From Clostridia bacterium (GTDB lineage: Bacteria; Bacillota; Clostridia; Oscillospirales; CAG-272): DNA of 58,945 bases. Below are positions 4,764-15,829 of the stretch, one piece after another (position 1 is the stretch's first letter; every line of letters starts with the position of its first letter). Location: the NCBI GenBank assembly GCA_017504995.1, contig JAFVQC010000048.1:1-58945 (forward strand), written 5' to 3'. A model generated the notes under the pieces. That model did no database searches. It was not told the origin of the DNA and was given only the letters and a program-made list of their open reading frames with translations. A program made the position numbers and the translations under genes.

Positions 4764-5639
4764 TCACACTTTCTCATGGCGCTTCTTGCCCAAAATACCT
4801 GAGGGCTTAACAAGCAGCACCAAAATGAGGATCGCGAATACGATTGCGTCCGAATAAGAGGCAAGAAATTCGTATTTCAGTGCGAATTGCTCTACGATGC
4901 CGAGGATGACACCGCCGATCATCGCACCGGGAATAGAGCCGATCCCACCCAATACCGCCGCAACGAACGCCTTAATACCGGGCATCGCGCCCAAGGTCGG
5001 ATCGGTAACGGGAGCAATGAACAGCATGAAAACGCTGGCAACCGCGGCAAGAGCGGAGCCAATCGCGAAGGTGATGACGATGGTACGGTTGACATTAATA
5101 CCCATCAACTGCGCGGCGCCTCGGTCCTCGCTGACAGCCAGCATGGCTCTTCCTGTTTTTGATTTATTGACAAACACGGTCAGTGCAATCATGACGATCA
5201 TACCGACAACCAGCGTTATAATTGACTCGGTTTTGATGGTGAGCCCGTTGAATTCGATGGAGTTAAACTGAAACATGGTGACCTGCTTGGGGGTAACGGT
5301 GAAGATCAGCTGTGCCACGCTTTGCAGCAGGAAGCTTACGCCGATCGCTGTAATTAAAACCGCCAAGGATGGAGCTCCGCGCAAGGGGCGATACGCAATA
5401 CATTCCACCAATACGCCAAGGATCACGCAGAAAAGAATCGCCAAAAGAATGGCAAGGAAGGGGTTTTTGATGGATTTCATCGTGAAAACAAACAAAACGT
5501 ACGATCCAACCATGATGACGTCGCCGTGGGCGAAGTTCAGCATTTTCGCAATGCCGTAAACCATGGTGTAACCAAGAGCGATCAGCGCATAAACTGCGCC
5601 CATGCTCAAGCCATTGATCAATGTACTGATAATACTCAT
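4764..5639 (-). CDS. livH: Branched-chain amino acid ABC transporter permease LivH
   Basis: The protein has 291 residues from ATG 5639, with a GAAAGG ribosome binding site about 13 bases upstream. It opens with the family hallmark LINGLSMGAVYALIALGYTMVYG and has about eight membrane segments. The EAA-like loop VSEDRGAAQLMGINV is near residue 180. It forms the permease heterodimer with LivM. A 187-base gap separates it from livK and carries a strong stem-loop, so permease and ATPase genes are probably expressed at a lower level than the binding protein. Confidence 0.94.
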   Translation of the reverse strand: MSIISTLINGLSMGAVYALIALGYTMVYGIAKMLNFAHGDVIMVGSYVLFVFTMKSIKNPFLAILLAILFCVILGVLVECIAYRPLRGAPSLAVLITAIGVSFLLQSVAQLIFTVTPKQVTMFQFNSIEFNGLTIKTESIITLVVGMIVMIALTVFVNKSKTGRAMLAVSEDRGAAQLMGINVNRTIVITFAIGSALAAVASVFMLFIAPVTDPTLGAMPGIKAFVAAVLGGIGSIPGAMIGGVILGIVEQFALKYEFLASYSDAIVFAILILVLLVKPSGILGKKRHEKV

Positions 5640-5778
5640 AAAATCAGACCGGCCTTTCAAATAACAAATTAGTGTCTTTGAGAGGAAGGCGATCCTCCAA
5701 AAAACAGAACAAATCCGAAGAGCCGACTTGCGCTTCGGAGGTTAAAAAGTTTCAATACTACTATGTAAGGAGTTGAAT

Positions 5779-5813
5779 CGCACAATGATCGGGGGTCCCC
5801 CGATCATTGTGCG
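5779..5813. promoter_or_regulatory. Stem-loop between livK and livH
   Basis: A perfect 17-bp inverted repeat (5779-5795 and 5797-5813) has only one base between the arms. No T run follows on either strand, so it does not look like a simple terminator. Stem-loops at this spot between a binding-protein gene and its permease genes typically stabilise the upstream mRNA and attenuate the downstream part; that role is inferred here. Confidence 0.7.
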
Positions 5814-5826
5814 AGAAACGGTAAAA

Positions 5827-6963
5827 TTAGTCGATGACGATGGTTACGGGCTGCTTTACAGCGGCACCCTTTTCATCCCAGGTCATGGTACCGGTAACAC
5901 CGACGTACTTAAACTCACCCTGCAGAACAGCGGTGATCTTGTCGCAAAGGTCGGAAGGATCAATGTTCACATCGTCTACTTCTGCTGCCTTCATTGCCTC
6001 GTAGATTACATAGATCGCGTCGTAAGCGTCTGCCGCGAACTGGTCCGGAATCTCTCCGTTGTACTCTGCCTTGTAAGCATCAACGAAGCTCTTGATCTTT
6101 GCGTCGGAGCTTTCTACGTCGATGGGCGCTAGATACTTCAAGCCCTTGATCTGCTCGGACAGAGCGTCGTTGTCAGCAACATGCTTTACGATGCCGTCCA
6201 TACCGTCGCAACCGTAGAAGGCAACGGAATAGTTCTGGCTTGCGGCCTCAGCGATGATGAGGGATGCTTCCTGATAATAAATGGGAAGGAAGATAACGTC
6301 ACAGCCTGCAGCCTTCAGGTCGGAAACCTGAGTGGAGAAGTTAGTCTTGGTGGTGTCGGAGAAGGACTTCTTTACGTAGTTGTCCTTGTTCTGCGCAGCC
6401 ATTTCATCTTCGAAGCCCTTCAGCAGACCCGTGGAGTAAGCGTCGTCCGTGTTGTAGATCACACCGATTTTATTGAATTCGGTTGTGAGAGCCTTAGCGG
6501 CGTACATACCCTGGTCGGGGTCACCGAAGCAGATGCGGTAGCCGTTGGAGTTTGCGATTGCGTCGTCAGTGGAAGCGGAGGGAGTGATGAAGAACAGGTT
6601 GTCCTCCTTGGATTGTGCTGCAAAGGTTAGGCAAGAGCCGGAGGTAACGCTTCCGATTGCCGCAACCATGCCCTTGGACATCAGGGTGTTGTACGCATCA
6701 GTAACCTTATCGCCGGAAGCTTCGTCGTCGATCATCTCGAAGGAGAAGTTCACGCCGTTCAGACCGCCAGCCGCGTTAATTTCCTTGATAGCAAGGTTCG
6801 CGCCCTTTTGTACGGAAAGACCGTAGCTTGCGGCGGATCCCGTCAAGGGTCCCGTTGCGCCAATGACGTAGGTGTCGTTCTTCTTGCCGCACGCAACGAG
6901 GGCGGTGGAAGCAAGAACAAGACACATACACAGAGTAAGAATTCTTACGAGTGTCTTTTTCAT
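5827..6963 (-). CDS. livK: Branched-chain amino acid binding lipoprotein LivK
   Basis: This 378-residue periplasmic-binding-protein type 1 lipoprotein captures substrate outside the cell for LivHMGF. The signal peptide ends in the lipobox LVAC, giving lipidated Cys25. The mature protein opens with VIGATGPLTGSAASYG, the Peripla_BP_6 signature, and keeps the family block AAIGSVTSGSCLTFA. ATG 6963 has a GAGGT RBS seven bases upstream. It is the first gene of the operon, with a good promoter about 75 bases upstream. Confidence 0.95.
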   Translation of the reverse strand: MKKTLVRILTLCMCLVLASTALVACGKKNDTYVIGATGPLTGSAASYGLSVQKGANLAIKEINAAGGLNGVNFSFEMIDDEASGDKVTDAYNTLMSKGMVAAIGSVTSGSCLTFAAQSKEDNLFFITPSASTDDAIANSNGYRICFGDPDQGMYAAKALTTEFNKIGVIYNTDDAYSTGLLKGFEDEMAAQNKDNYVKKSFSDTTKTNFSTQVSDLKAAGCDVIFLPIYYQEASLIIAEAASQNYSVAFYGCDGMDGIVKHVADNDALSEQIKGLKYLAPIDVESSDAKIKSFVDAYKAEYNGEIPDQFAADAYDAIYVIYEAMKAAEVDDVNIDPSDLCDKITAVLQGEFKYVGVTGTMTWDEKGAAVKQPVTIVID

Positions 6964-7473: not shown

Positions 7474-7583
7474 ATAATAACTTATATAATATATTTTTGG
7501 AAGGGACTCCGAAAAAAGGTCGGATTTCCTGCCTTGACAATATTATAATTTTCTCGAAATTTTAGAAAAGCAGGTGGTTGTAT

Positions 7584-10500
7584 ATGAAAAAGTTTTTGAG
7601 CAAGCGAGTGTTGCCCATATTCATGACCGTTGTAATGCTGCTATCGGTGTGCTTACCCATTGGAGCGTATTCGATCTCCGCGCCGAGCGAGAACGCGGAC
7701 GACGTGTATTACAACATCGTCTTTGAGGACGGTCAGCTGCGGATTCAGCTGAATCCGCAAAAGGTCTATGAAATGGTTCGTGACGGAAACGTGACGAAGG
7801 ATGAGCTGTCAAAGTTCATGCCCGAGGACGTTTGGGCGGTTTTGCAGAAGGGTCAAGGCATTGCGCTTGACGACCTGACGGAGCTATTGTCTGCGTACGT
7901 TACTCCCGAGTTGATCGACGAGATCAAAAAGATCGTTCCCATGGAGGTGTTGGCGAGCCGTTTTGATCTTTCGATGTTCGAGGACGTTCTGACGGTTGAC
8001 GAGCTGACGTCGGTGATTTCGGTTGACGAGCTGATGGCGGGCGTAAGCGACGAGGCGATTAGCGGGTTGATCACGGCGGAGGTTCTGGAGCTTCTGCTGA
8101 ACGAAACCGTGAAAAAAGAGGTTTTGACCGAGGAGTTCGTGGAAGAATTGTTGTTTGCCGAAGGCGATAACTCGGTGATCGAAGCGATTCTTGGCGGCGA
8201 TCTGAAGCCTCAACTCGTGGGCTTGGTGGACGACGCAGTGGTCTCTGCGGTGCTGAGCGAATCGACCAATGCGTTGGTCAAGCTGGTGGAGTCAAAGAAG
8301 GATAGCTTGCTTGCCGACTCTCAGGTGTTGACGGGCTTCAGCAACTATTTGAAGGCGCACAAGGACGTTCTGCCCGACTTTCTGTTGCAGGAGCGCGTAA
8401 AGAACGGCTTGAAGCAGCACCCCGAGATTTTCCTACACGAGGATATTATCGAGATTCTTTTGGCGGATAACGTCATCAACGAAGGAAACCTTCTGACGCT
8501 TTTTGATGGAAGCAATGCCGTGATGGCTGAGCTGGAGAGTTTGTTTGACGCGACGGCGATCGAGAAGGTCATGGGCGTACCCTCCTTCGTGAACCGATTG
8601 ACCGCGAATTCTACGCTGATGAGTCAGTTGGTAACGCCCACGCTGATTGATTCTCTTTACGCGACGGGTTGCATTTCCCCCGAGGCGGTTGCGGTAATCA
8701 ACGAGACGAAGATTGATGCGTTGAAGAACGATGCCGCGGCAATGCAGGCGTTCTGCGACGAATACGGAATCGAGCTTGCGGATCTGCAGAAATATCATTT
8801 GGGGCAGATCACCTCAGACGCATTGTTGGCAAACGTTTCGGCGGCAAAGCTGATCGAGGACGGTTATGCAAGCATCAACGAGACGGAAGCGAGAGCGCAG
8901 CTGATCGCGATTCTTACCAACGCGAACCACCCGAAGCGTGGCGAGGTTCTTGCGGCGGTGACCGACAGCGTCAAGGCGGACGGCTTTGATCTGGATACGT
9001 ACTGGGGATTTGTGGACGAGGCGACCTTTGACGTGATCGTGCACGATATCCTGACCCCCGCAAGGATCCATTCATGGTTTGAGGCGCATCCCGAGGTGTT
9101 TGGCACACTGTTCCGATCGCTCAATTCTACTACGGTAGACGGAATTTATAATGCCTTCCACGATATGCCCGAGGAGGATCTCCTTGCGATCATGACGGCG
9201 CACATGAGCGACGTGGCAAGCACCGTGGGAGTGGAAGCGTTCTTTGAATTTGAAAAATTCGATCCCGTTGCGTTGATTCGCGAGATCGGCGGAGAGAAGG
9301 GCTATTTCTACTTTGTTGATAAAAAACACGTGACGGTAGAGGAAATCGCCGCCGCGATCGGAAACGGAAACGCTAGCGAGGGCTATAAAAAGCTTCTTCG
9401 CCTGATCGGCACGGAAACCATTTTGGAAAAGATTGGTGCAGCGCCGTTCATTCCTTACGTAAGCTTTACCGATATCGTTACCGCCGCAGGCGGATACGAT
9501 AAGGCGTTGAGATGGTATACCTATGAAGAAATAGCGGCAATTTTCCGCGAGATCGGAGTCGATAAGCTTCGCGCGTTCCTGACCGACACGGGTATCGTGA
9601 CCGATCTTGACCTAAAGGGAATCGCTACCGAGATCGTTGACTTGCTTCGTGACAAAAAGGATCAATTGAAGGCGTTGGCAAAGGAATGCGTGAATCGCCT
9701 GAGCCAGATCTTCCTTTTGGACGTAGACAGCATTACCGTCAACGGAACGAGAGTGGCGCATTACGGAACGATCGATCTGCAGGCGCTTGTAACCGAGCTT
9801 TTGCAGGCGATTCCCGATATTGACGATTTCCTCGCGATGAGCGAAGGGGATACCTTTGCCGCCCTCGGCTTTGAGGTGATCGGTGTAGACGGATCCTTCC
9901 GTACGGGCTTGCGTGTTTCCGTGGAATTCATCGGAGACTTTACCGAGCTACAGGAATTTGCCGAAGCCTATGCGGATTATTTCCGCTTTGACGTGTCCGA
10001 CGATATGGATATTGCCGTGGAGACGGTGCTGCCTTCGGTTGCTGCCGATCTGTACGAAAAGGCGTTGACCTCGGATCGCGTGCCCGACAGTCTGAAAAAG
10101 AAGCTGTTGGAGCTTCCGAGCATGACGGTGACGGACGCCGCCGAGATGCTTCGTGCGTTGACCGACGAGGAATTGCAGACCGCCGTTGACACCTTCGGTG
10201 AAAAGGCGGAATCGATCCGCGACAAGGCTTACGACGCGATTGACGACAAATTCGGTTCGATCTTTGACAAATTCGGAGCTGCGAAAAAGGCAGAGGAAGC
10301 GGCAAAGGCGGCAGTGGAAAAGATCCTTGGCGCGGTTACGGATATCCAAAAGCTTCGCCGCGCGTTGGATAAGGCGGCGGACGTAATCGAAGCCACCGCA
10401 GGCACGTTCGGCGCGGACACGACTGTTGCTGACTGGTATGTGGCAAACGGACAGTTTGTGACCGATACCTTTGAGCTTGAAGTGAATCTGTATGAAAAAA

Positions 10501-13500
10501 TCAACAAATTCATTTCCTTGCCCGACGATATTCTTCCTATATTTAATAATAATATGACGGTATCGGGTTCGCTGTCTCTTGACGTGACGTTGACCGACGT
10601 ATACCGCCTACAGATTACCGACGAGGAAGCGAATCTACATACCTTCTTCCTTCCCGCGGGCGTATCTGCCGACGTGCTTTCGGATTTCAACCTGAAATAC
10701 GAGTTTGAGGCGGGCTGGACCATGCCTGCGGCGGATACCGAACTGTTTGCTGACAATTTGTTTTTGATCGAATTCTACAGCGAGAACCACGAATTGGTAG
10801 GCACGGTAGGTTATACCGAGGACAAAGCGCCCGACGAGACGCGTTATCCCGCCGTTCCCCAAAAGAACGGATATACGGGCGTGTGGGAGGACTTTACCGA
10901 CCGCCTGTGGACCGAAAAGGTCATCAAGGTATATCCCGTTTATACCGCGGAAATCTATAAGGTTGAGTTCTACGCGGAAGGAAAGCTCGTAGACTTCTTT
11001 ACCTATACCGTGGACGATCATTCCAATCGGTTTACCCCCGACGTTCCCGATCACTCCAATCCCGGTTATATCAACGGAGCGTGGTACGTGAACGGCGTGG
11101 CGTGGGCGGACTACGAGCTGACCTACGGTAATGTGACCGTTACTGCGGTTTACGAGTTGAAGCCGTTCACGGGTTCGATCGTTGCTTACAGCGGTATGGA
11201 TGCTGAAACGGCGCAAAGATGGTCAAATCTGACGTTTGAATATGACGTAGAGCACACGAGGCTGTCGCTGGCTCTTCCCGAGGATCCCACGAACATCATT
11301 TGGGGTTATACCTTCGATACCTTCTATATTGACGAAGACCACAACGGCGTGTTGGATAAGAATATCGATACCCGTTTGGAGAAATACGTTCCCGAAGCGC
11401 AGACCTTCCGTATGTTCCGCATGATGAGAAGTACGGCAATCACGGTGGAATACTCGCTTCCCGAGGGATATCTGATGGATCCCGAGAACGTGCGAGAACT
11501 GGATCTGGTGATGGCGTTCGATCTAAACGAATATTCCGTAACCTTCCTTGACAATAACGGCAATCCCGTGACCGAACAGAACGGCGACTATATCTACACG
11601 ATTCTCGATACGTCGATCACGACTCCCGAAGTGCCCGAAATTGCGGGTAAGACGGGCGCGTGGTACGTTTGCGACGAGGACGGCAACGTGACCGATACGC
11701 TGTGGAGCGCTTACGACATGAGCGCCTCCGCGCGGGATATCGTGGTGCAGGCAGTCTATACGCCCATCGACTATACCGTAACCTTCTTTGATAAGAACGG
11801 CAACGAGGTCGGCAAGTTCACGTATAACGTAGAAGACTATTCTAAGGTCTATACGCCCGATATGCCCGCAACGCCTTCCTATTACGTAGACGGCAGCGGA
11901 AAATGGTATATTTGTGACGAGTACGACAATCCTACCGACGTGGAGTGGAATCCCAACAATCTCTTTATCGGTGACTTTATCGTCAAGGCGGGCTATACGC
12001 CCATTGAGTATACCGTTACCTTTAAGGATGAGGCGGGCAATCCTCTCGGATCGGACACCTATACCGTAGAAGATTACTCTCTTACCGTTCCTTCCTTCGC
12101 GGATAGAACCGCCGAAGGCTACGCGGGCGGCTGGTACGTTTGGGACGAAACGACCCAGAAATGGAACGCATGGAGCGTTCAGTCCTTGACCAACGGCAAC
12201 GTGACCGTGGTTCTCCGCTACGTTCCCATTCAATACACCGTTTCCTTCTGGGCGAACGACGTACTCTACGCGGAGCAGTTCTACACCGTAGACGATTATA
12301 GCGGTCTGCAATTTGTTCCTTCCGTTCCCGCATCCGTACAAGCGGGCTATGGTAACGGAAAGTGGTACGTGTTTGTCGAAGGACAAAAGACGGTTTTGTG
12401 GGCAGATTACGAATACAGGGCATCGATTGGCAATATTGAGGTTCGTGCGGTATACGAGGTGATTCCCTTTACCGTAACCTTCGTGGACGCCAAGACGGGC
12501 AGAGAAATCGATTCGATTACCTATACCGTTAACAACCGTGAGGAAATGACGATCCCCGGCGTTCCTTCTGTGGAATACTACGAGAACGGACGTTGGTGCT
12601 TGAAGGACGGCGACGAATACGAGCTATGGGATCAATCGTTGAATCTGGAAAATCTGACGGTATATGCCGTCTACGACGCGATTCCATACGCCGTAACCTT
12701 CGTAGACGCCAAGACGGGCAATACGCTGAATACGCTGATCTATACCTTCGATAACCGCAACAGCGTAAGCGTTCCTTCCGTTCCCACCAAGACGCATTAT
12801 GAGAACGGCCGTTGGTGCTTGAAGAACGGTGACGACTACGTATTGTGGAATCAGTCGTTGAACTGCGAGAACCTGACGGTATACGCGGTTTACGATGCGA
12901 CGAAATATACCGTAACCTTTAAGGACGCCAAGACGGGCAACACGCTGGACATTCTTACGATCACCTATACCGTCGAGGACGATCTGACGGCGATCACCGT
13001 TTCCGATCCGCCTCAGATGGCATATTATGAGAACGGACGTTGGTGTCTGGATGCCAACGGTACGACCGAGTGGAATGAGTCGCTGAACTACGAGAACCTG
13101 ACGGTATATGCGGTTTACGACGCGACCCTATACACCGTAACCTTCAAGGACGCCAAGACGGGCGCGACGTTGGATACGCTGTCCTATACCGTGGAAAACC
13201 GCGCAAGCGCGACGATTCCTTCCGTTCCCACCAAGACGCATTATGAAAACGGCCGTTGGTGCTTGGAAGCGAACGGTACGACCGAGTGGAATGAGTCGCT
13301 GAACTGCGAGAATCTGACGGTATACGCGGTTTACGACGCGACCCAATACACCGTAACCTTCAAGGACGCCAAGACGGGCACGACGTTGGATACGCTGTCC
13401 TATACCGTGGAAAACCGTGACAGTACGACCGTTCCTGCCGTAGCAAGTAAGCTCCATTACGATACGGACGGCAAGTGGTACAAGGATGCCAGCGGTACGA

Positions 13501-14957
13501 CCGAGTGGAATCAGGAGCTGAACTACGAGAATCTGACGGTATACGCAATCTATTCGCCTCATAACTACACCGCAAGCTACACCTACGGTGACGTCAGCGG
13601 TTCGGTTTCCTTTAACGTAGAGCAGGGCGGCTTCGAGCTTCCCATTCCCACCAAGGAGCACTACGTCTTTGATACGTGGTACATTGATTCCGACGGCGTG
13701 GCAGGACCTTCCGCAGGCGATATCCGTTTGACCATGCAGCAGGCGGCAGCCTTCGGTCTTGCCCGCAATTCCGCGGCGCAGAGCGCTATGTTCCTGTTGC
13801 CCACAGGTACGCAGATGCCCGGCGGTGACGTCAATCTGTATCCTACCTTTACGGCGATATCCTACGATATTTTCTTTGTGGAAGGCGATCAGGTTTCGGT
13901 GATCTTCAGCTACACCATCGAGAATTGGCAGACCATCGTGCCTCCCACGCTGACGTCTCGGGTGGGCTACACCGCGCAGTGGTGCTATCAGAGTGGCGAC
14001 GCATATCTGCCTTGGTCGGTTGATATGCTGCAAAACGGCGGTGACGTGACCGTATACGCGATCTACACGCCCATTACCTACACCGCAACCTTTAAGGCAG
14101 ATGGTCAAGTGGTCGGAACAGTACAATTTACCGTGGAACAGACCGAGCTTCTCGGTATTCCCGCCGTTCCCGCCAAGAAGGGATACAACGGCGTATGGTC
14201 CGCTTACGAGATCAAGGCGGAGGATATGACCATTGAGGCGGTTTATACCTTGATTCAGTATACCGCAACCTTTATCGCGGACGGCATTGAGATCGCGAAG
14301 GTGAACTTTACCGTGCTGGATACCTCCATTGAAGAACCCGAGGTTCCCGCCAAGGAAGGCTATACGGGCGTATGGCAGTCCTACGAGCTGGATGCGGCAG
14401 ACGTGGTGATCCACGCCGTCTATACTCCCATTGATGGGGGAGACGATGGCGAAAAGGGTGGATTCCCGTGGTGGATCCTGATTCTGATCATCGTGATGCT
14501 TCTCGCCGCGCTGATCATCGTGATACTGGTGCTGAAGAACCGTTCGGATGACGACGACGATACGACGCCTCCCGCGCCCGTAGTCGCGCCCGAGCCTGAA
14601 CCCGAGCCCGAGCCTGAAGAGCCCGTGGTACTGGAGACGGTGGACGTGGAAACGGCGGATTCGTTGATGAGTGACGCGGACGCGATCGCGGCAATCGAGA
14701 TCGTATTTGCATCGAGAGTGGAAGGACCGAAGGGAATCGTGAACATTGATGCGATCAACGAAGCCTTTGCGGCAGGAGAGACCGTGGATCTGGATTCCTT
14801 GAAGGCGAAGAAGCTTCTTGCAAAGAAGACCACTCGCTATAAGGTTCTGGCAAACGGACATCTGGATAAGCCCCTGACGGTGGTGGCAGACCAGTTCTCT
14901 GTTCAGGCGATCAAGATGATCACCTTGACAGGCGGTCACGCAGTCCAGAAAAAATAA
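7584..14957 (+). CDS. Giant surface protein with uL15-like cytoplasmic tail
   Basis: The protein has 2457 residues from ATG 7584 (AGGTGG RBS six bases upstream). Residues 1-28 form a signal peptide. Residues ~40-950 are a helical region of many short D/E/L-rich helices that I cannot assign. From base 10760 to 14430 lie about 15 units of 60-75 residues with the plan YTVTFxDxxG...YTVEDxS...VP...GxWY...NxTVxAVYxPI, like Listeria-Bacteroides (Flg_new/InlB B) beta-grasp repeats. Units 8-12 are nearly identical even in DNA. A membrane segment at ~2292-2320 is followed by an Asp run, a Pro-Glu linker and ~75 residues that align by eye with the C-terminal domain of ribosomal protein L15 (VNIDAINEAF, VDLDSLKAKKLL, YKVLANGHLDKPLTV). 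The bulk should be outside the cell and the L15-like tail inside. Function unknown. Confidence 0.85.
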   Translation: MKKFLSKRVLPIFMTVVMLLSVCLPIGAYSISAPSENADDVYYNIVFEDGQLRIQLNPQKVYEMVRDGNVTKDELSKFMPEDVWAVLQKGQGIALDDLTELLSAYVTPELIDEIKKIVPMEVLASRFDLSMFEDVLTVDELTSVISVDELMAGVSDEAISGLITAEVLELLLNETVKKEVLTEEFVEELLFAEGDNSVIEAILGGDLKPQLVGLVDDAVVSAVLSESTNALVKLVESKKDSLLADSQVLTGFSNYLKAHKDVLPDFLLQERVKNGLKQHPEIFLHEDIIEILLADNVINEGNLLTLFDGSNAVMAELESLFDATAIEKVMGVPSFVNRLTANSTLMSQLVTPTLIDSLYATGCISPEAVAVINETKIDALKNDAAAMQAFCDEYGIELADLQKYHLGQITSDALLANVSAAKLIEDGYASINETEARAQLIAILTNANHPKRGEVLAAVTDSVKADGFDLDTYWGFVDEATFDVIVHDILTPARIHSWFEAHPEVFGTLFRSLNSTTVDGIYNAFHDMPEEDLLAIMTAHMSDVASTVGVEAFFEFEKFDPVALIREIGGEKGYFYFVDKKHVTVEEIAAAIGNGNASEGYKKLLRLIGTETILEKIGAAPFIPYVSFTDIVTAAGGYDKALRWYTYEEIAAIFREIGVDKLRAFLTDTGIVTDLDLKGIATEIVDLLRDKKDQLKALAKECVNRLSQIFLLDVDSITVNGTRVAHYGTIDLQALVTELLQAIPDIDDFLAMSEGDTFAALGFEVIGVDGSFRTGLRVSVEFIGDFTELQEFAEAYADYFRFDVSDDMDIAVETVLPSVAADLYEKALTSDRVPDSLKKKLLELPSMTVTDAAEMLRALTDEELQTAVDTFGEKAESIRDKAYDAIDDKFGSIFDKFGAAKKAEEAAKAAVEKILGAVTDIQKLRRALDKAADVIEATAGTFGADTTVADWYVANGQFVTDTFELEVNLYEKINKFISLPDDILPIFNNNMTVSGSLSLDVTLTDVYRLQITDEEANLHTFFLPAGVSADVLSDFNLKYEFEAGWTMPAADTELFADNLFLIEFYSENHELVGTVGYTEDKAPDETRYPAVPQKNGYTGVWEDFTDRLWTEKVIKVYPVYTAEIYKVEFYAEGKLVDFFTYTVDDHSNRFTPDVPDHSNPGYINGAWYVNGVAWADYELTYGNVTVTAVYELKPFTGSIVAYSGMDAETAQRWSNLTFEYDVEHTRLSLALPEDPTNIIWGYTFDTFYIDEDHNGVLDKNIDTRLEKYVPEAQTFRMFRMMRSTAITVEYSLPEGYLMDPENVRELDLVMAFDLNEYSVTFLDNNGNPVTEQNGDYIYTILDTSITTPEVPEIAGKTGAWYVCDEDGNVTDTLWSAYDMSASARDIVVQAVYTPIDYTVTFFDKNGNEVGKFTYNVEDYSKVYTPDMPATPSYYVDGSGKWYICDEYDNPTDVEWNPNNLFIGDFIVKAGYTPIEYTVTFKDEAGNPLGSDTYTVEDYSLTVPSFADRTAEGYAGGWYVWDETTQKWNAWSVQSLTNGNVTVVLRYVPIQYTVSFWANDVLYAEQFYTVDDYSGLQFVPSVPASVQAGYGNGKWYVFVEGQKTVLWADYEYRASIGNIEVRAVYEVIPFTVTFVDAKTGREIDSITYTVNNREEMTIPGVPSVEYYENGRWCLKDGDEYELWDQSLNLENLTVYAVYDAIPYAVTFVDAKTGNTLNTLIYTFDNRNSVSVPSVPTKTHYENGRWCLKNGDDYVLWNQSLNCENLTVYAVYDATKYTVTFKDAKTGNTLDILTITYTVEDDLTAITVSDPPQMAYYENGRWCLDANGTTEWNESLNYENLTVYAVYDATLYTVTFKDAKTGATLDTLSYTVENRASATIPSVPTKTHYENGRWCLEANGTTEWNESLNCENLTVYAVYDATQYTVTFKDAKTGTTLDTLSYTVENRDSTTVPAVASKLHYDTDGKWYKDASGTTEWNQELNYENLTVYAIYSPHNYTASYTYGDVSGSVSFNVEQGGFELPIPTKEHYVFDTWYIDSDGVAGPSAGDIRLTMQQAAAFGLARNSAAQSAMFLLPTGTQMPGGDVNLYPTFTAISYDIFFVEGDQVSVIFSYTIENWQTIVPPTLTSRVGYTAQWCYQSGDAYLPWSVDMLQNGGDVTVYAIYTPITYTATFKADGQVVGTVQFTVEQTELLGIPAVPAKKGYNGVWSAYEIKAEDMTIEAVYTLIQYTATFIADGIEIAKVNFTVLDTSIEEPEVPAKEGYTGVWQSYELDAADVVIHAVYTPIDGGDDGEKGGFPWWILILIIVMLLAALIIVILVLKNRSDDDDDTTPPAPVVAPEPEPEPEPEEPVVLETVDVETADSLMSDADAIAAIEIVFASRVEGPKGIVNIDAINEAFAAGETVDLDSLKAKKLLAKKTTRYKVLANGHLDKPLTVVADQFSVQAIKMITLTGGHAVQKK
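12470..13560 (+). repeat. Near-identical tandem repeats inside the giant gene
   Basis: Five consecutive units with a period of about 216-225 bp encode almost the same repeat domain. The blocks starting near 13116 and 13333 are nearly base-for-base equal. The DNA-level identity points to recent duplication or gene conversion and predicts copy-number variation. Confidence 0.8.
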
Positions 14958-14972
14958 AAAATAATCCCAATC

Positions 14973-15017
14973 GGCGGCGATCTGCTACGGTAGGTCGCCG
15001 CCAAGGCTTTCTTTTTT
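14973..15017 (+). terminator. Terminator after the giant gene
   Basis: The stem GGCGGCGA/TCGCCGCC (14973-14980 and 14995-15002) has a 14-base loop and is followed by a T-rich run. It starts 16 bases past the stop. Confidence 0.75.
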
Positions 15018-15130: not shown

Positions 15131-15829
15131 ATGAAAAAGCTGTACGCAGGAAAAACGAAGGACGTATACGAGCTGGAAAACGGCAACGTGCTGTTGAAGT
15201 TCAAGGACGATTGCACGGGCAAGGACGGCGTGTTCGATCCGGGTGAGAACAGCGTTGGTTTGACCATTGAGGGAATCGGCAAGGCGAACCTGGAAACCTC
15301 GGTTCACTATTTTGAATTGTTGAAGCAGGCGGGCATCAAGACCCACTACGTCAGCGCAAACGTGGCGGAAGCGACCATGGAGGTTCTTCCCGCGGAGTGC
15401 TTCGGTAAGGCGCAGGGCGGTAACGGTCTGGAGGTTATTTGCCGTTTGGTTGCAACGGGCAGTTTTATCCGCAGATACGGTGAATATATCAAGGACGGCA
15501 CGGTGCTTGAGGGCGGTTACGTAGAGTGCACCTTTAAGAACGACGCAAAGGGCGACCCGTTGGTAACGGGCGAGGGCTTGGCGGCGCTGGGCGTTATGAC
15601 TCCCGCCATGTTCGAGAGCATGAAGGAGCAGACCCTCAAGATCACCAAGATCGTTGCGGACGACCTGAAGTCCATTGGTCTTGATCTGTGGGATATCAAG
15701 TTTGAGTTCGGCTATAACAACGGCGAAGTGATCCTCATTGACGAGATCGCGTCGGGTAATATGCGCGTTTACAAGGACGGCAAGATCGTAGACCCCGTTG
15801 AGCTGACCAAGCTGATTCTGAATCGATAA
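15131..15829 (+). CDS. purC: SAICAR synthetase PurC
   Basis: Phosphoribosylaminoimidazole-succinocarboxamide synthase, 232 residues, joins aspartate to CAIR with ATP in step 8 of purine synthesis in the cytoplasm. The opening [11 protein letters not shown] is the ATP-binding start of the family, and the ends [16 protein letters not shown] and [12 protein letters not shown] are characteristic. ATG 15131 has an AAAGGAG RBS ten bases upstream. The gene stands alone, away from other pur genes. I see no purine riboswitch in the 170-base upstream gap, only a weak promoter candidate (TGTACA, 17 bp, TAAAAT at about 15081-15086). Confidence 0.93.

Follow-up and report, generated by a model that had tools for sequence, protein, structure and literature searches.

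A giant surface protein is encoded in a 58,945-nucleotide stretch of DNA from a Clostridia bacterium (NCBI GenBank assembly GCA_017504995.1, contig JAFVQC010000048.1, positions 1 to 58,945 of the forward strand; Bacillota; Clostridia; Oscillospirales; CAG-272), which we call the window. Behind its last membrane segment this protein carries a domain for which profile and sequence comparison show homology to ribosomal protein uL15, namely to its C-terminal half. Comparison with true uL15 indicates that the tail is likely no longer ribosomal. It belongs to a family that recurs with or without an ectodomain, and a good part of the family's loci adjoin genes for surface or matrix proteins. We propose, giving the idea about an even chance of being right, that the uL15 fold has been reused as a predicted cytoplasmic docking module that would hold surface-protein assemblies under the membrane. 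If true, this would be a striking new use of a ribosomal-protein fold, with a family of predicted membrane proteins dedicated to it, some members of which carry ribosomal protein names in databases, and it would offer a handle on the organisation of surface proteins and TasA-like fibres in uncultured gut Firmicutes.

The uL15-like domain and its comparison with rplO

An earlier reading of the window's sequence (the original prediction) had assigned a uL15-type domain to the tail, predicted to be cytoplasmic, and profile searching bears this out: the last 83 residues score 55.7 bits (E 6.5e-15) against PF00828 (Ribosomal_L27A, uL15/L18e family), whose gathering threshold is 21.5, and the score in the context of the whole protein is 47.3 bits. 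All four sequence blocks named in that reading are present, and it had the order of membrane segment (residues 2298-2316), acidic Pro-Glu linker and uL15-like domain right. With TIGR01071, the NCBI equivalog model of bacterial uL15, the tail reaches 46.7 bits and fails the cut-off of 77.95; since the match is confined to model positions 74-142 of 144, it covers the C-terminal half of uL15 only. A phmmer search of the tail against the PDB gave 46 sequences at E <= 1, headed by a mycobacterial uL15 (5.5e-9), and the names among the matches shown were uL15/L15, L27a and L18e/eL18, with one entry additionally labelled L14. The parts of the gene to which we refer are the following.

7584..14957, plus strand: coding sequence of the giant surface protein, 2457 residues; ATG start, with a TTG in frame at 7578
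7608..7664, plus strand: N-terminal hydrophobic segment, residues 9-27, likely a signal peptide (hydropathy scan)
13131..13331, plus strand: best of eight Listeria-Bacteroides repeat stretches (PF09479, Flg_new), ectodomain residues 1850-1916 (Pfam profile search)
14475..14531, plus strand: C-terminal membrane segment, residues 2298-2316, with KNR coming next (hydropathy scan)
14532..14639, plus strand: acidic Pro/Glu linker, residues 2317-2352 (sequence composition)
14640..14711, plus strand: conserved pre-domain segment VDVETADSLMSDADAIAAIEIVFA, residues 2353-2376, probably a helix (motif, and covariation with residues 2432-2443)
14736..14942, plus strand: uL15 C-terminal-like domain, residues 2385-2453 (PF00828)
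14898..14930, plus strand: rewritten last helix SVQAIKMITLT, residues 2439-2449, a helix by analogy with uL15 (comparison with rplO)

The eight repeat stretches of the ectodomain bring the PF09479 total over the whole protein to 95.7 bits. Because the membrane segment is followed by KNR, the tail is predicted to be cytoplasmic.

The tail gene is not the genome's sole uL15 gene, as a normal rplO of 150 residues is found on the same contig (C12:76750-76950). The two are 45% identical over 67 residues. What the tail shares with bacterial uL15 is the C-terminal domain, with a common core of N2387, V2401, L2406, K2420, G2425, K2429, S2439, A2442 and G2450-G2451. In the rplO of the same genome, the net charge is +13 for the N-terminal half and 0 for the C-terminal domain, and the basic N-terminal extension with a GxGxGxGKT motif is absent from the window tail, in which the 59 residues of the linker and pre-domain segment (2317-2375) have a net charge of -16 and the domain one of +2. 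The tails differ from rplO in that they lack the basic N-terminal half, are predicted to be membrane-anchored, have a changed last helix and an added pre-domain segment, and score below the rplO cut-off.

The tail is under purifying selection, with dN/dS of 0.10/0.54 in comparison with L032 and 0.26/1.46 with L033. In six relatives (P0004-P0007, P0009, P0013), the uL15-like domain is 67-85% identical to that of the window and the ectodomain 36-69%; in the close relative P0003, the figures are 96% for the domain and 89% for the ectodomain.

A family with a rewritten helix and an added segment

The original prediction had called for a survey of the membrane-segment, linker and L15 architecture, and this architecture turns out to occur in 22 of the 30 genomes of the genus and beyond it. 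These 22 (own genome included) have one or two uL15-like tails, which pass the Pfam cut-off of PF00828. In 297 genomes of the order, again with our own, 13 have a match at E <= 6.9e-26 that extends over the pre-domain segment, and all 13 belong to the window's own family (38 of the 297); two further genomes of that family, G314 and G319, have weak matches in long frames, and the matches in other families of the order are rplO-sized, among the matches listed. The exact pattern A-[IVM]-KMI-x-L-x-GG was found in none of 397 other genomes of the phylum (398 with our own, few close relatives included). A search of 84,980 species genomes with one peptide pattern gave 277 stretches, 266 of them confirmed, and the best 80 were kept; these come mostly from Clostridia/Oscillospiraceae metagenome-assembled genomes (MAGs), many of them from the guts of ruminants and other herbivores; a few are from Bacilli, Anaeroplasmataceae, Borkfalkia and Limihabitans.

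Protein searches yielded 102 giant relatives (the window protein included), as well as 457 matches at E <= 0.001 to a 178-residue query and 937 at the same threshold to a 377-residue query, of each of which 120 were listed; genuine rplO may be among the small ones beyond that listing. The listed members thus number 342 (102 giant, 120 small, 120 medium), and the full family is probably over a thousand. A membrane segment precedes the domain in 101 of the 102 giant, all 120 listed small and 112 of the 120 listed medium forms. Its C-terminal flank is the one richer in lysine and arginine in 64/101 giant, 116/120 small and 112/112 medium forms, from which we infer that the uL15-like domain faces the cytoplasm.

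The family comes in several forms. Eight small proteins of 168-192 residues (L057, L065, L072, L077, L078, L080, L087, L110) consist of one membrane segment, the linker, the motif described below and the domain. Others, of 365-580 residues and in three more cases of 815-855, have between membrane segment and uL15-like domain a further domain, X (L049:5482-5991, L061, L079, L083 and others), which reads YYSxLKNxLLSYxxVKxRxSW...GRK...RGKTLxLYLAL...KYAKELI and then YPYDTTxxLVxRxLIK; L079 is an X protein without membrane segment. Of the 194 tail sequences examined, a set with redundancy, 56 contain domain X; it gave no Pfam match in four proteins tested and no solved relative at E <= 1, and it was not found in the genomes of eight tested relatives in a search that had no positive control. 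A second unannotated domain, Y (..NYLxxKYKDEVxxNxRxNxTxTGLPLADTH..), stands ahead of the uL15-like domain in three copies in L070 and in one copy in P0077. Furthermore, P0076, a protein of 1801 residues without membrane segment, joins BspA-type leucine-rich repeats (LRR) to a uL15-like tail; the module therefore also occurs outside surface proteins. A TIR-like look of P0076 was seen by eye only and had no Pfam listing at E <= 0.001, and we do not claim it.

In a tree of 140 domains, a single branch divides 104 tails from 36 rplO (support of 98 in the Shimodaira-Hasegawa-like approximate likelihood ratio test, SH-aLRT), and with the genus set added, from which the divergent L168 and the window itself (L002) were dropped, it divides 102 tails from 36 rplO with a support of 97. 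All 36 rplO rows come from one order, and the inner forks of the tree are not settled because the columns are few (79-80). The two groups differ in the last helix before the GG. In the 36 rplO it is AKEKIEAAGG-like (K 94%, E 75%, K 100%, I 100%, E 100%, A 81%, A 97%), in 100 tails it reads A[IV]KMIxLTGG (I or V 100%, K 100%, M 100%, I 98%, T 58%, L 100%, T 93%), so that K2444, M2445 and L2448 are invariant in these signature-bearing tails, while core residues such as K2420, G2425, K2429 and S2439 are common to both groups. Four signature-less tails (P0053, P0075, P0086, L030) were left out of this comparison, and the helix signature had itself been used in the search that supplied 24 of the 100 rows; the 79 giant-protein tails were selected independently of it. 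The signature A[AILVM]KM[ILV], which in the window is AIKMI at 2442-2446, occurs in 98/102 giant, 120/120 listed small and 119/120 listed medium forms, where the pattern was sought in the whole protein.

The second distinguishing mark is the motif VSAEEADxLMSDxxAxxLIE ahead of the domain, at residues 2353-2376 in the window. Its link to the helix signature was evaluated in 37 tails chosen by PF00828 rather than by signature (35 from the genus and a single one from each of the family genomes G030 and G031; L168 and L002 dropped as before); the A-x-K-M signature is present in 26 of them and absent from 11. The motif profile, whose training set includes relatives of the 26, scores at least 5 bits in 25 of the 26 signature tails and in none of the 11 others, and the 26th, L160, has the motif by eye. 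Of the genus tails lacking both marks (L139-L145, L148, L153, L163, L169), some (L141) retain an rplO-like helix and branch near the base, as though they stood between rplO and the full tail.

Mean-field covariation was computed from 473 rows, of which 17 without signature were dropped, leaving 456 and then 380 unique rows with an effective number of sequences (Neff) of 195. The covarying pairs between motif and domain are D2359-Q2441 (7.9 standard deviations), A2376-D2436 (5.1) and I2371-I2443 (4.2), the last with an exchange of size (V-I 93, I-V 90, V-V 58, I-I 11). In 20 trials with shuffled motif rows, a control that breaks relatedness too, the maxima were 1.4-2.0. Within the domain, many of the strongest pairs lie 30-36 residues apart, as expected from strand or repeat pairing. 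The simple reading of these data is that the added segment may form a helix that lies against the last strand and helix, the face that has been rewritten.

Genomic context and what the tail may do

Genomic context was counted among the 80 fetched loci in the 42 whose tail proteins have no membrane segment beyond residue 200 (the other 38 were excluded); in ten of them the 5' side is truncated, which leaves 32 evaluable loci. In six (L057, L065, L072, L077, L078, L080), the tail gene overlaps by 4 bp the end of an upstream SipW-like gene; among the NCBIfam models, signal peptidase I SipW fits this gene best in all six, at 52.7-75.1 bits. Downstream of all six lie TasA/camelysin-like genes, and in each locus one match or more exceeds a curated cut-off for TasA/camelysin or for the SipW signal (PF12389 at 26.0-37.1 bits in L057, L065, L077, L078 and L080; TIGR04088 at 20.1 in L072). 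These six tails are 48-62% identical to one another, and thus the linkage is not recent.

In seven further loci (L055, L075, L084, L090, L092, L105, L107), the tail gene starts 2-12 bp after a gene for a protein that ends in a membrane segment, and this partner has PF09479 repeats, like the window protein, in six of six tested (all but L107). Such split pairs look like a separated form of the window gene's fusion. At L047, from a Bacilli MAG, a neighbour ending in a membrane segment lies 66 bp away and is without PF09479, and at L089 a membrane protein of 214 residues lies 12 bp upstream. One family of uncharacterised small membrane proteins (MKRISFFSTPFYMYLTEVPF...) recurs near tails in ten loci (L051, L056, L071, L074, L082, L086, L094, L100, L102, L106), seven of which have an X-type tail.

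How could a ribosomal fold serve such proteins? In the docking module that we favour, the added segment 2353-2376 would be a helix that packs on the strand 2432-2436 and the helix 2439-2449, within one chain or between chains. It would replace the lost N-terminal extension and close or pair the fold, and the completed domain could then bind a candidate partner, be it a second tail or some protein of the cytoplasm. Binding of this kind would keep giant surface proteins, as well as TasA-like fibre subunits and their signal peptidase, together at the export site. A bolder version, which we regard as doubtful, is a scaffold that assembles itself: each tail would dock through its ADxLMSD segment on the rewritten helix of the next, so that giant proteins, partners with membrane segment, X and uL15-like domain, and SipW/TasA-like fibres would join in one polymer-like lattice under the membrane, a membrane skeleton organising the cell surface.

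Several points weigh against the docking module. Its partner is hypothetical. The SipW-like genes fall below both curated signal-peptidase cut-offs (190 for the equivalog, and that of the archaeal-type model), a Pfam search of the one tested, L065, listed no peptidase family, and 17 of the 32 evaluable loci have no neighbour of the kinds described above immediately upstream. The window gene is itself not in a SipW/TasA-type operon and seems solitary, its neighbours being judged by eye, and no SipW (NF046067) match occurs in its genome, which is 77% complete. One of the 102 giant and eight of the 120 listed medium forms show no membrane segment, so some members may do without attachment to the membrane. 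With regard to the added segment, the association of motif and signature amounts to few independent changes rather than 37, because the training set holds relatives and the 11 signature-less tails fall in few branches, several of them near the base. Covariation from 380 sequences may in part reflect phylogeny; when half of the clusters were sampled ten times, D2359-Q2441 came first or second of 1800 pairs in nine samples and dropped to rank 20 in one, and A2376-D2436 and I2371-I2443 were unstable (ranks 2-538 and 2-952).

Next after the docking module we rank a transmembrane sensor, a rather improbable alternative, in which ligand binding by the ectodomain would be relayed through the uL15-like domain to a cytoplasmic effector. 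Variable ectodomains on a conserved cytoplasmic domain would suit it, as would the presence of the same domain on the membrane-segment-free BspA-LRR protein P0076 and on X-domain proteins, which could be effectors. It sits badly with the forms of about 175 residues that have no ectodomain, six of them in SipW/TasA-like clusters, and no catalytic or regulator domain scored above the Pfam cut-off in the tails searched (window, P0095, P0091, P0071, L079, P0077). These minimal forms, which hold nothing outside the cell, also speak against a passive anchor, i.e., a fast-folding C-terminal domain that merely halts export and retains the protein in the membrane, a role that any such domain could fill. 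The position of the domain at or near the C-terminus, past the last membrane segment, in nearly all members is what such an anchor would predict, but the domain is more conserved than the ectodomain, and K2444 and other residues are invariant in the tails compared; we give the anchor less weight than the sensor.

The original prediction had offered a tether or sensor of ribosomes or rRNA. As a tether, the tail would bind, at the membrane, 50S subunits, intermediates of their assembly or partners of uL15. Homology to uL15 is genuine, the rplO core residues are retained (K2420, G2425, K2429 and S2439 among them), and some early-branching tails keep an rplO-like helix (L141). The N-terminal half of uL15 holds its rRNA-binding extension, however, and it is this half, charged +13 in rplO, that is gone, with a stretch of -16 in its place and a nearly neutral domain behind it. 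Moreover, 98 of the 102 giant relatives carry the changed helix signature, the lysine found in 36 of 36 rplO at the place of M2445 is methionine in 76 of 79 giant tails, and in mature ribosomes uL15 would already fill the site. We therefore consider a ribosome tether unlikely and place it below the anchor. The same reading had allowed that the tail might be only a reused fold: the reuse stands, whereas the "only" does not fit a distinct conserved family with a covarying added segment and a recurrent link to surface genes. Finally, mis-assembly or chance fusion of an rplO fragment, conceivable in a fragmented assembly of 121 contigs, has a negligible chance and was rejected, because the architecture is spread across genomes (22/30 of the genus), the tail is under purifying selection, and the cluster of P0002, which in public data is identical to the window protein, is found in 3 contigs.

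Known systems and other features of the window

The tapA-sipW-tasA operon is the matrix operon of B. subtilis. A matrix operon of C. perfringens, sipW-bsaA, is described in the available part of PMC7395162, where a word search found neither "ribosomal" nor "L15". Both resemble the six SipW-type loci in that a SipW-like peptidase adjoins TasA/camelysin-like genes with SipW-type signal peptides. They differ in that here a gene for a membrane segment plus uL15-like domain sits in between, with the 4-bp overlap, and in that the SipW-like genes score far below the equivalog cut-off. A different comparison is with LPXTG and PEP-CTERM, C-terminal tags common to diverse surface proteins. As with these, one conserved C-terminal module follows many different ectodomains, but the uL15-like tail is a folded domain of about 70 residues, predicted to be cytoplasmic, and also occurs as a stand-alone predicted membrane protein.

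As the original prediction had supposed, similar annotations exist: NCBI calls some relatives, MAG proteins that are members of this tail family, "uL15 family ribosomal protein". The name implies a ribosomal role, against which the anatomy of the tail argues. Neither this phrase nor a description of the tail family was found in the literature searched, which took in little of the subscription literature, and the statement that no function had been described holds for that literature. In the parts available, uL15 is mentioned a single time in a review on extraribosomal functions, in connection with the spc operon (PMC10931766), and another article concerns differences in the uL15 C-terminal domain in Enterococcus ribosomes (PMC7530986). 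PF00828 appears in a list of 16 single-copy marker genes in the available part of PMC10102025; since the tails pass the PF00828 cut-off, a genome carrying them could be scored as contaminated.

As for the rest of the window, the N-terminal approximately 900 residues of the giant protein (7740-10500) gave no Pfam match above cut-off and by eye resemble long helical repeats with recurring "GGY" turns. At 14972-15003, 3' of the gene, a GC-rich inverted repeat with a T-rich stretch after it looks by eye like a terminator; a terminator scan limited to loops of 3-8 listed no hairpin there. The neighbouring genes, likewise judged by eye, are LivH/LivK-like transport genes on the opposite strand (4764-6963, minus) and a purC-like gene (15131-15829, plus).

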